Origin: Methanorbis rubei
GTDB lineage: Archaea > Halobacteriota > Methanomicrobia > Methanomicrobiales > Methanocorpusculaceae
Direction of reading: 5' to 3'
Length of the DNA stretch: 64,000 nt
Assembly (NCBI RefSeq): GCF_032714495.1
Contig: NZ_JAWDKB010000002.1
Span: 124,001-188,000 of the forward strand
Shown here in pieces: positions 47,173-62,673 of the stretch. The notes under the pieces are model-generated. The model searched no databases and was not told the DNA's origin. It worked only from the letters and a program-made list of their open reading frames with translations. Within the stretch, counting starts at the first letter, position 1; each line of letters starts with the position of its first letter. Position numbers and translations under genes: made by a program.

Positions 47173-48468
47173 TGTACTGTACTTCAAACAGTACTTCGCT
47201 AATTATTCGCTTCATCATTCCATCCATCCCGAATGTATATCTCTGTTATTGGTTGGAATCTCTCCCTTATCGCATCCCAAACCATTATTTTAAATTGTTG
47301 AAATCTGAACTTATTTTCCTCCACAATCACTCTATTATCCCTAACTGAAAAATATCTTCTTTGAATTACCACCCAAACGTTTTTCAGAACAAATGCAATA
47401 AGTGCATAAAAATATCTCAGGGTTGGTGATTTTGTGGTGGTTTTTATTTTAACCTGATTCCTCAATCTATACGATGCTTCAATAGAAAATCTCGAATAAT
47501 ATGTTTTCCTAATTTTTCTTGGGCTACCTCTGAATTTGAAGACAACAAATGTTTTTACATCTATTTTGTCTTTATTTTAATCAACTCTTCCCCTCCTCAC
47601 ATCTATTGCAATGATTGTCTCAACACGTTTTTTTCTTTTTCCAATTGAATATGGTGTAAATCCAGGGACTTCCCGATTCAGAAGAGCAACCATTTGTTTA
47701 CTTTGCTTTTTTACCGGAACAATATATGGAATTTGTTCTGATTGAAGATAAGAAAAAACATCCACTGCATAAAATCCCCTATCCAGACACAGCACTTCCA
47801 CCTTAAGAAAATGCTCTCTTAAGACCTGAATACATTTTTTTACCAAATCAACTGTTTTCTCCCCAACTTTGACAGGAAAGACGGCAAATGTTACGCGCTC
47901 TCCTCGTACCATGCTGTAGAGGGAGACGTAGGTATAAAATTTCTTTGTCGATTTCTTTTTCTGGCCCAGGATTATGTAGTCTTTGTTCTGTTCGTCTATT
48001 TTTCCGTAGTAAGGATCATTGGTGAGATCAATAGCAAACTGATATTTTCGGCCAGGGATGAGAAGGAGTGAGCAGGAATGAAAGAGTATCCAATGATTGA
48101 GAGATTCGAGGGAAAACAAAGATAGTTTGGAAAGATGATGCCTCAGCGAGGTCTCACAGGGGCAGGTTTGTACAACAGTTCCAAGTGAATGTAAAGACAG
48201 ACATTGAGATGCAGTTCCCACAGCAGCTGTCAAGATGGTGGTTTGATCCAAGGAACCTTGGATCGACAGATACAGATAACGATCCAAAGATGAAACAACA
48301 AGTCTACTGCAATCGATTGAACGAAGAACTATTTTTCTATTAGATGAGGAGGAAGCCCAATTTACCATGAAAAAATCACGGGGGAAGTATAAATATGTTC
48401 TGATTTGTGAGGGGGGGCAAAAAATGGGGCGGGGAAAATTAGTGAAGTACTGTTTGAAGTACAGTACA
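47173..48468 (-). mobile_element. Insertion sequence with 32-bp terminal inverted repeats, transposase broken
   Basis: The ends at 47173-47204 and 48437-48468 are inverted repeats of 32 bp with one mismatch, starting TGTACTGTACTTCAAACAG. The 1296-bp unit contains one transposase frame on the minus strand. No clean target-site duplication is visible: the left flank is a CTA/ACT microsatellite and the right flank begins GTGTACTA. IS4-superfamily, ISH3-like, by its transposase. Confidence 0.88.
47199..48368 (-). pseudogene. DDE transposase (ISH3/IS4-like) with in-frame stop
   Basis: One continuous frame of 389 codons interrupted by a single TAA at 47577-47579 (codon 264). The upstream part has the first Asp in 'QFAIDLTNDPYYGK' and the second in 'VEVLCLDRGFYAVDVFSYL'. 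The downstream part, in the same frame, has the late Glu motif 'YYSRFSIEASYRLRNQVKI'. The catalytic triad is thus complete but split by one nonsense codon, so the copy is probably dead; a recent event, because no frameshift accompanies it. The start is taken at 48368 and is uncertain. Confidence 0.85.
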
Positions 48469-60228: not shown

Positions 60229-61302
60229 TCACTCGCGCTCATGCCCGTGCCGGTGATGCAGGTCTGGTGTGTGGGGATGATCATGACTCTGATCCTCATG
60301 CGTGTGCGTGTGCGAATGCTCGTCAGCGACAGGGGGGTCGTGCGTGTGGGTATGATGTTCGTCGTCATGGCTGTGGCGGTGTTCATGCGTGACAACAGCA
60401 TGTGTATGTCGGTGATGATGGCCGCCGGTCGCAGCAAAGTAGGCTCCAAGGATCATGATTACCGTCGCCACCGCAAACGAGAGTGTGAGATCAGTTCCGA
60501 ATATGGCAAAGGAGAGGGCAACACCGATGAAGGGGGCGACCGCGTAAAATGCACTGGTCTGTGCAGCGCCGAGAGTTCTCTGGGCAAGAACATAGAAGTA
60601 GATCGACAGACCGTAGGCAAAAAATCCAAGCAGCAGTGCGGCAAGCACACTTCCCATGCTGCCAAAGATTGCTTCGCCCGCGAAGAACGCGAGGATCAGT
60701 GCTCCGGTTCCGGCACCAAATCCTTTGATAACCACAATCTCTACCGGATCTTTGAGCGAAAGCATTCGTGTGCAGTTGTTCTCAAATCCCCAGGCGACGC
60801 AGGCAAGCAGTACAAGAATTGATCCTTGCGAGAATGCAAGGCTTCCCGCATCCTCTACGGTGAGAAGGATGCTTGCAAAGACAATCAGAATGATCGCAAT
60901 GCCAAGTCTCCGGTCGATAGACTCGCGGAAGACAAAAAATGCAACGAGAGCTGTTGTGACGATCTCAAAGTTGTTGAGAAGCGAGGCGTTTGCAGCAGTC
61001 GTCATGGTGAGTCCGAACATCAGAAGAACCGGCGCTGCAATGTCAAGCAGAATCATGCCGATAACATACGGCAGATCTTTTTTTCCGAGCGGTGCCTCCC
61101 GACGTGTCTTGTTTCGTGAGGACTGGAGAAGACTTACCGCGAACATGCCGATTCCTGCCCCGAGATACAGCAGTGATGCAAGAAGTGCCGGAGGAATGCT
61201 TTCGAGCAGCAGCTTTGCTGCGGGCGAGCTGATGCCGTAGAGCACTGCTGCGAGAACGGCAAAGCCGATCGCCGCATGTCGTGGGTTTATGGAGTTTCGC
61301 AT
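60229..61302 (-). CDS. EamA/DMT-family transporter with long His-rich tail
   Basis: 357 residues. Residues 1-290 have ten membrane helices in two EamA repeats ('AAKLLLESIPPALLASLLYLGAGIG', 'GFGAGTGALILAFFAGEAIFG...'). The last 65 residues hold 24 His plus Asp and Glu, with HxH runs, and face one side of the membrane. This looks like a metal-binding tail as in cation-diffusion facilitators, so metal efflux or storage is a fair guess, but the transport domain is of the drug/metabolite type. Divergent from the signal peptidase gene, with the large palindrome A9/B2 in between. Confidence 0.88.
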   Translation of the reverse strand: MRNSINPRHAAIGFAVLAAVLYGISSPAAKLLLESIPPALLASLLYLGAGIGMFAVSLLQSSRNKTRREAPLGKKDLPYVIGMILLDIAAPVLLMFGLTMTTAANASLLNNFEIVTTALVAFFVFRESIDRRLGIAIILIVFASILLTVEDAGSLAFSQGSILVLLACVAWGFENNCTRMLSLKDPVEIVVIKGFGAGTGALILAFFAGEAIFGSMGSVLAALLLGFFAYGLSIYFYVLAQRTLGAAQTSAFYAVAPFIGVALSFAIFGTDLTLSFAVATVIMILGAYFAATGGHHHRHTHAVVTHEHRHSHDDEHHTHTHDPPVADEHSHTHTHEDQSHDHPHTPDLHHRHGHERE

Positions 61303-61360: not shown

Positions 61361-61958
61361 TTTGTATTTTTGTCGTAGCTCCGCCCACGATTAGCATGCC
61401 TCCGGCCTGCTCACTGCTTCGCAGGAAAAACGGACCACACGGAACTTTACAAAAAAACATCACGGAGCAGACGTGAACAACACTGAAGGAGAATAATTAT
61501 TTAGGAGTTACGCGGTATGAACTAGCATAAGGAAAAAGAATTTTTTGTAGGTGGTCTCGTTTGGAGTAACCACGGAACACACTGAACACACGGAATTTCA
61601 CGGAAAAAACACAGAATACCGCTTCGCTTACGGAAAACACGGAAAGACTAAGGAAGTTGGCATCTCAAAACGGTGACATATACCAATACCCGTACACTTA
61701 GGCTTTCCGTGTTTTCCGTAAGCGAAGCGGTATTCTGTGTTTTTTCCGTGAAATTCCGTGTGTTCAGTGTGTTCCGTGGTTACTCCAAACGAGACCACCT
61801 ACAGAAAAATCCCAAACAATGAAATTCATCACCGCGTAACTCCTATTATTTCAAAAACGATTCATTTCCGTGCTGTTCACGTCTGCTCCGTGATGTTTTT
61901 CCGCGATATTTCAGTGTGTTCCGCTTTTCCGTGGACGGAGCTACGACAAAAATACAAA
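61361..61958. repeat. Type A palindromic element A9 with type B element nested inside
   Basis: The outer ends TTTGTATTTTTGTCGTAGCT (61361-61380) and its perfect complement (61939-61958) delimit 598 bp. Inside the left end come GCTCCGCCCACGA, module D and the core GGAGCAGACGTGAAC; the right end has the mirrored core and a CGTGGACGGAGC. GGAGTTACGCGG and CCGCGTAACTCC pair further in. At the centre sits B2. It fills almost the whole space between divergent genes. Confidence 0.92.
61547..61802. repeat. Type B palindromic element, copy B2, with two perfect 100-nt arms
   Basis: Arms 61547-61646 and 61703-61802 are exact inverted copies; pairing goes on with one mismatch for about six more bases, leaving a loop of about 45-55 bases. 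The arm begins GTAGGTGGTCTCGTTTGGAG and includes CACGGA or a close variant several times. Confidence 0.95.
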
Positions 61959-62013: not shown

Positions 62014-62673
62014 ATGTCATCAAAGCCCTCGCTGTTGGAGAAGCTGAAGTCAGATGATCCGAAGATCAGTCTCGTTCGCGACATCTTGTCGGTCATCATC
62101 ATTGTTGCCGTTATTGGCGCAGTATTATTTGGCGTATCAGGAACATGGCCGGCGATCGTTGCTGTTGAGTCAGGCAGCATGGTGCCGAACATGAATGTCG
62201 GCGATCTGATATTTGTCGTTGAAGAAAACCGGTTCGGCCCTTTGATGACCTCGGTTGAAGCACAGGCTGCAAATGTCACCTCCTTTGGCGGTTACGGCGA
62301 CGTCATTATCTATCAGCCGAACGGCAACTCACAGGTGACGCCTATTATTCATCGTGCGCTCGGAGAGATCAATGAGTCAACAGCTCTTGAAGCAGGTCTT
62401 GCGAATGGTGGGTACATCACCAAAGGAGATAATAATTCGATAATCGATCAGAATGGAAGCTTTACTACAGTCGGGAGAATGCAGCCGGTGAAGGATGAGT
62501 GGGTTGTCGGCAAAGCATTGTTTGCCATTCCGCTGGTGGGATATCTGCCGCTGCACATCTGGGAGTTTGCTGTTGTTGTGATCATTCTTCTGATCGCGTG
62601 GGAACTTTACAGCCGCAGAAAAGAAAAAGTAAAGCAAGATGCAAAGAAGCCTCAGAAAAAGAGTAAGAAATGA
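62014..62673 (+). CDS. Type I signal peptidase, archaeal form
   Basis: 219 residues. Membrane helix at about 24-45, catalytic Ser55 in 'VESGSMVPNMNVGD', His113 in 'TPIIHRALG' in place of the bacterial Lys, Asp residues in 'YITKGDNNSIID' (139, 145), and a second helix at about 180-200. The C-terminal tail is very basic (KKPQKKSKK). Cleaves signal peptides of secreted proteins. Overlaps cofH by 4 nt although the functions are unrelated. Confidence 0.93.
   Translation: MSSKPSLLEKLKSDDPKISLVRDILSVIIIVAVIGAVLFGVSGTWPAIVAVESGSMVPNMNVGDLIFVVEENRFGPLMTSVEAQAANVTSFGGYGDVIIYQPNGNSQVTPIIHRALGEINESTALEAGLANGGYITKGDNNSIIDQNGSFTTVGRMQPVKDEWVVGKALFAIPLVGYLPLHIWEFAVVVIILLIAWELYSRRKEKVKQDAKKPQKKSKK

Follow-up and report, generated by a model that had tools for sequence, protein, structure and literature searches.

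A hairpin MITE nested in an older palindromic repeat of Methanorbis rubei

Introduction

Between two divergent genes, the genome of Methanorbis rubei carries a 598-bp element that is a palindrome within a palindrome. The element lies in the 64,000-nt stretch of DNA analysed in this study (positions 124,001 to 188,000 of contig NZ_JAWDKB010000002.1; referred to below as the window). A sequence-only reading of the window had regarded long perfect palindromes as usually unstable, and proposed recent origin, gene conversion between the arms or selection to account for the two perfect arms found here. The locus thus raises the question of how such a structure was formed, and why its central stem is so perfect. 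We consider it very probable that this is a nested pair, in which a mobile element (type B) entered an older palindromic repeat (type A), with duplication of TTATT, and that a short tract was later copied from the right arm of B onto the left.

Results

The analysis revealed three nested layers of inverted repeats: (i) an outermost layer (61361-61389 with 61930-61958), 97% complementary over 29 nt, the first 23 nt without mismatch, (ii) a middle layer (61453-61487 with 61866-61900; 94%), and (iii) an innermost layer (61538-61652 with 61697-61811; 97% over 115 nt), which includes an exact stem of 101 nt enclosing a loop of 56 nt (Table 1). The predicted DNA folding energy of the whole element is -244 kcal/mol, compared with -70 +/- 4.9 for shuffled sequences (z = -35.9), which excludes a chance origin of the palindrome. 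When used as a query, the 598-bp sequence gave hits at dozens of sites in the genome (1.83 Mb), and these were resolved into two families, A and B. The layers, the folding and the related copies across the genome confirm the nested palindrome described in the sequence-only reading, and its outer ends and inner arms, given there as perfect over 20 nt and 100 nt, are in fact slightly longer. That reading also placed B symmetrically at the centre of A; B does lie in the AT-rich loop of A, but the halves of A are unequal and symmetry outside the stems is imperfect. It did not recognise A and B as dispersed repeats, or B as derived from a transposon. Searches of the window for Rfam families and for tRNA genes gave zero matches.

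Table 1. Coordinates of the nested element and its neighbours in the window
Feature	Position	Strand	Remarks
Entire nested element (MITE B within the loop of palindromic repeat A)	61361-61958	n/a	
A, left half	61361-61501	n/a	141 nt; repeated end TCGTAGCTCCGCCCACG begins at 61373
A, right half	61846-61958	n/a	113 nt
36-nt module ATTAGCATGCCTCCGGCCTGCTCACTGCTTCGCAGG	61390-61425	+	A left arm only; related modules in single arms of other A/B copies
A core ATCACGGAGCAGACGTGAAC, left arm	61459-61478	+	
A core, right arm	61875-61894	-	
Target site duplication TTATT, left copy	61497-61501	+	
Target site duplication TTATT, right copy	61846-61850	+	
Type B MITE	61502-61845	n/a	344 bp
B left terminal inverted repeat, TAGGAGTTACGCGGT	61502-61516	+	15 nt
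B right terminal inverted repeat	61831-61845	-	15 nt
Perfect-stem left arm of B	61546-61646	+	101 nt
Left-arm tract with right-arm sequence, candidate arm-to-arm copy	61546-61573	+	~28 nt
B loop	61647-61702	n/a	Either orientation among copies
Perfect-stem right arm of B	61703-61803	-	101 nt
EamA-family transporter	60229-61302	-	
Archaeal signal peptidase I	62014-62673	+	

The ends of A gave 56 matches in the genome (control, 0), and its core gave 121 (up to 3 mismatches allowed), as compared with 0 for the reversed control; a search of genome contigs with the exact core, own and very near records excluded, yielded zero matches. Repeat A is intergenic, and other copies are also found in tandem and convergent gaps. 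Many loci with A are common to M. rubei (genome G000) and its sister species (G018), which is its closest relative (signal peptidase identity of 94%), and the core is kept in both arms and in both species. The outermost 12 nt of the left half (TTTGTATTTTTG) are specific for this locus and are common to the sister species. At about ten A copies with both ends, no target duplication was visible by eye. The complement of the core is terminator-like and points outward, with hairpins followed by T runs in both arms (2 found, 0.5 expected), which is why we guess at a terminator function. Our leading, still tentative guess is that A belongs with the BIME-like palindromic repeats and may have some activity as a terminator.

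Modules of the 36-nt CGCATGCCTTYGGCCTGCTCACCGCTTCGCGG type occur in single arms of A/B copies in the window and at seven other loci (L031, L043, L050, L059, L127, L148 and L153), where no target repeat was noticed by eye. At another locus (L062; G000 C5:83315-83806) there is a B-free palindrome resembling A, in which the ends are doubled and the AT-rich inner segments repeated.

The ends of B are also abundant, with 144 matches in the genome (up to 2 mismatches) compared with 7 when the pattern was reversed. About 25 B-type copies in the M. rubei genome, at T-rich sites, have direct repeats of 5-7 bp (usually 6 bp) on their flanks, and many copies have no exact flanking repeat; all copies were taken from the matches listed by the searches, which is not a complete genome scan. 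B-like sequence was detected in 6 of the 41 genomes searched, all of one genus. In the orthologous gap of the sister species, between the EamA and signal peptidase genes, A is present and the B site is empty, with the junction GAATAATAATTTCAAAA as compared with GAATAATTATT, B and TTATTTCAAAA in M. rubei. A second clean empty site was found in the sister species at L050. Two further candidates proposed by length (L037 and L123) were rejected, their junctions not being clean, and a nest in the sister species (L081) was rejected as an ortholog of the present one, as it is located elsewhere, beside NifU/NifS-like genes. Since the sister species locus consists of A without B, B was inserted after the two species split; A is older than B, having already become fixed here when the species separated. 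The recent origin proposed earlier is thereby supported for B. With its terminal repeats, target duplication and empty sites, and ends matching those of an autonomous element, B is a MITE.

What is apparently one site carries a nested B in both species (L035, G000 C3:253002-253329; L148, G018 C2:172363-172716) with the target repeat TCGTG. The two copies belong to different subfamilies and are in opposite orientation, which would reflect either ectopic replacement or two hits on one target.

The B-type ends also bound IS701-like transposase elements of the sister species and of other Methanomicrobia, the B-ended elements being 1083-1159 bp in length. At the transposase locus of the sister species (L105) the ends lie 1103 bp apart on both sides of a broken frame, with the 5-bp repeat TTTTA, while the element at L111 (1119 bp; direct repeat TTCAA) has an intact transposase. 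A protein search revealed relatives in sister genera, and B-type ends were present at L110, L112 and L113 as well as at L111. The homologous DDE transposase scored 388 and 395 bits against the IS701 family model NCBIfam NF049921 (cut-off 250). In the M. rubei genome an intact matching transposase was not found, and a decayed fragment with stops is present. The transposase of the L105/L111 type is, judging by the shared ends, the likely mover of B.

Most PF01609 transposases of the genus are without B ends. One region proposed as an autonomous element by end spacing alone (C2:51022-52039) was rejected, as it has no transposase inside. The window itself contains a PF01609 transposase remnant (47466-48041, minus strand) with one internal TAA and without B or A ends.

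The hairpin of B consists of two inverted copies of an arm unit of about 115 nt (GTGGTCT..GGAAAGCCTAAGGAAG). In genomes G004, G008 and G001 this unit is mostly single or in direct tandem, without B ends, and full-length matches to single-unit homologues in other Methanocorpusculum genomes show 84-91% identity. We detected one possible inverted pair of units (G004, L161). The palindromic form of B would be derived, because the unit is mostly unpaired in related species, and B has the appearance of a pair of inverted units that were taken up between IS ends, although the order of these events is inferred. At another G004 locus (L157, C58:45800-47400) units lie in direct tandem about 140 nt apart, together with inverted copies; several G004 contigs have the unit at the contig end.

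The exact stem of the present copy is the longest among the 25 B copies compared (the next being 76, 73 and 60 nt), and it exceeds the next-best because the left arm has right-arm sequence over about 28 nt. This tract (61546-61573) is identical at 28/28 positions to its own right arm and at only 19-20/28 to the left arms of siblings, while the adjoining inner stem matches the closest siblings at 69-72/73 positions and the right outer stem at up to 28/28. The most satisfactory reading is that this tract was copied locally from the right arm to the left. Recombination with another B copy is a possible source, since hybrid arms occur in other B copies (L143, L037 and L040). Relative to the ends, the loop lies one way round in about 9 copies and the other way in 7-8, which points to recombination between arms.

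It is a broader proposal, and in our view an improbable one, that continual gene conversion between the arms keeps all these palindromes symmetric. In its favour, the present copy combines the longest perfect stem with an evident copied tract, three B copies (L053, L134 and L035) have private variants common to both arms, as judged by eye, and at the present locus of the sister species a segment of about 38 nt occurs in both A arms, where in M. rubei only the left arm has a related module. The comparison of the arms for coordinated changes nevertheless went against it: comparison of 14 A palindromes with their orthologs in about 785 kb of G018 gave 125 columns in which both species retain a difference between the arms, and only 17 in which both arms changed together, with 10 in a crossed noise control, alignments of such short degenerate repeats being noisy. 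Likewise, in the 25 B copies a left arm resembles its own right arm more closely than the nearest sibling's in 10 cases, less closely in 14 and equally in 1. Neither test supports concerted evolution, and arm copying is not general among these palindromes, the A repeat of the sister species at the present locus being one exception. Of the gene conversion proposed in the sequence-only reading, one tract of the present copy thus stands, but not a general rule. It is quite improbable that the long perfect hairpin was selected at this locus for regulation, as a hairpin RNA, an insulator or a bidirectional terminator. The intergenic position of A, its conserved core and the outward T-run hairpins are consistent with such a role. 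However, A copies elsewhere occupy gaps of other kinds, and the absence of B from the sister species locus indicates that B is not needed there. In addition, the block upstream of the signal peptidase gene (AAACTTCTATACCGG..GATACAGCATTATG; AAACTTCTATACCGG...GATACAGCATT) is kept in species without the palindrome; the best named relatives of this peptidase are from Methanocorpusculum (79% identity, own and very near records excluded). This conservation suggests that the core promoter is located in the interval separating A from the gene. The gap is divergent, as had been stated, but the element probably occupies the space between the promoters without replacing them, and selection for the palindrome is not needed as an explanation.

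That the second arm was made by the assembler is hardly credible. The assembly does consist of 15 contigs, and related repeats lie at contig ends in another species; against this, the arms differ in their flanks and by a few mismatches, the present copy is well inside a 301-kb contig, and hairpins like it are found in the sister species as well as at dozens of loci. Assembly error is therefore unlikely for the hairpin family, and is less firmly dismissed for the present copy itself. As regards stability, an SbcD gene (128.6 bits; cut-off, 77.65) precedes an SbcC/Rad50-like gene in this genome; the Rad50 zinc hook was matched in 0 of 25 genomes, a negative that carries no weight, as the Haloferax and Methanosarcina controls were likewise without a match. 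The coexistence of dozens of similar hairpins with these genes weakens the view of the palindrome as unusual and unstable.

Discussion

In the nested-pair explanation favoured here, A would be an older palindromic intergenic repeat, in place before the species split. B, its hairpin formed from two inverted units of about 115 nt, would have inserted into the AT-rich loop of A, with a 5-bp target duplication (TTATT). Gene conversion, or a strand switch at replication, would then have transferred a short right-arm tract to the left arm, giving the perfect stem of 101 nt. Points against this explanation are that the M. rubei genome yielded no intact matching transposase, that the target duplications are longer than those of classical IS701, and that many B copies are without an exact flanking repeat.

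This is not the only such nest, as at least six B copies lie inside A palindromes of the M. rubei genome (in the window and at L035, L042, L055, L059 and L131). This count is far above the genome share of A loops, the yardstick being the whole genome and not AT-rich intergenic sequence. We raise as a rather doubtful possibility that B is a modular lineage of hairpin MITEs, whose arms, modules and loop are exchanged, inverted and copied, and which may prefer palindrome loops, perhaps as extruded hairpins. A second kind of nesting was seen at L123 (G000 C2:205607-205954), where a B-ended element is apparently located in the loop of another B-type hairpin.

The locus illustrates a route to a long perfect archaeal palindrome, in which a hairpin transposon derivative enters a palindrome and one of its arms partly overwrites the other, the empty site of the sister species being part of the evidence. 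The dozens of hairpins of graded perfection, together with the SbcC/SbcD-type genes, offer a natural setting in which to test how stable palindromes are in archaea. A search of the literature on insertion sequences, MITEs or inverted repeats of Methanocorpusculum found no description of this MITE family, which is linked to an IS701-like transposase with unusual target duplications of 5-6 bp. Rather than being an unexplained structure, the palindrome represents a new family within a known class of mobile elements.

As in the REP/BIME elements (PMC2817692), the A repeats are dispersed intergenic palindromes without target duplications, but their arms are longer (about 85 nt) and their loop is AT-rich. 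They also resemble QMITE-like repeats, which have been reported as targets of IS insertion (PMC10969869). Type B shares with prokaryotic MITEs (PMC10969869) a short, non-coding sequence in many copies, terminal inverted repeats, target duplications and ends in common with a transposase-bearing element. Unlike them, it is for most of its length a single long hairpin with near-perfect pairing; its inner modules are exchangeable, its loop occurs in either orientation, and it is nested inside the loop of a palindrome. Classical IS701 elements are 1400-1550 bp long and generate target duplications of exactly 4 bp (PMC2266710). The transposase of the B-ended elements scores far above the NF049921 cut-off, but these elements are shorter, and their target repeats are longer (5 bp at L105 and L111, 5-6 bp in most MITE copies). 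The presumed parent of B is thus IS701-like, and not a classical IS701.
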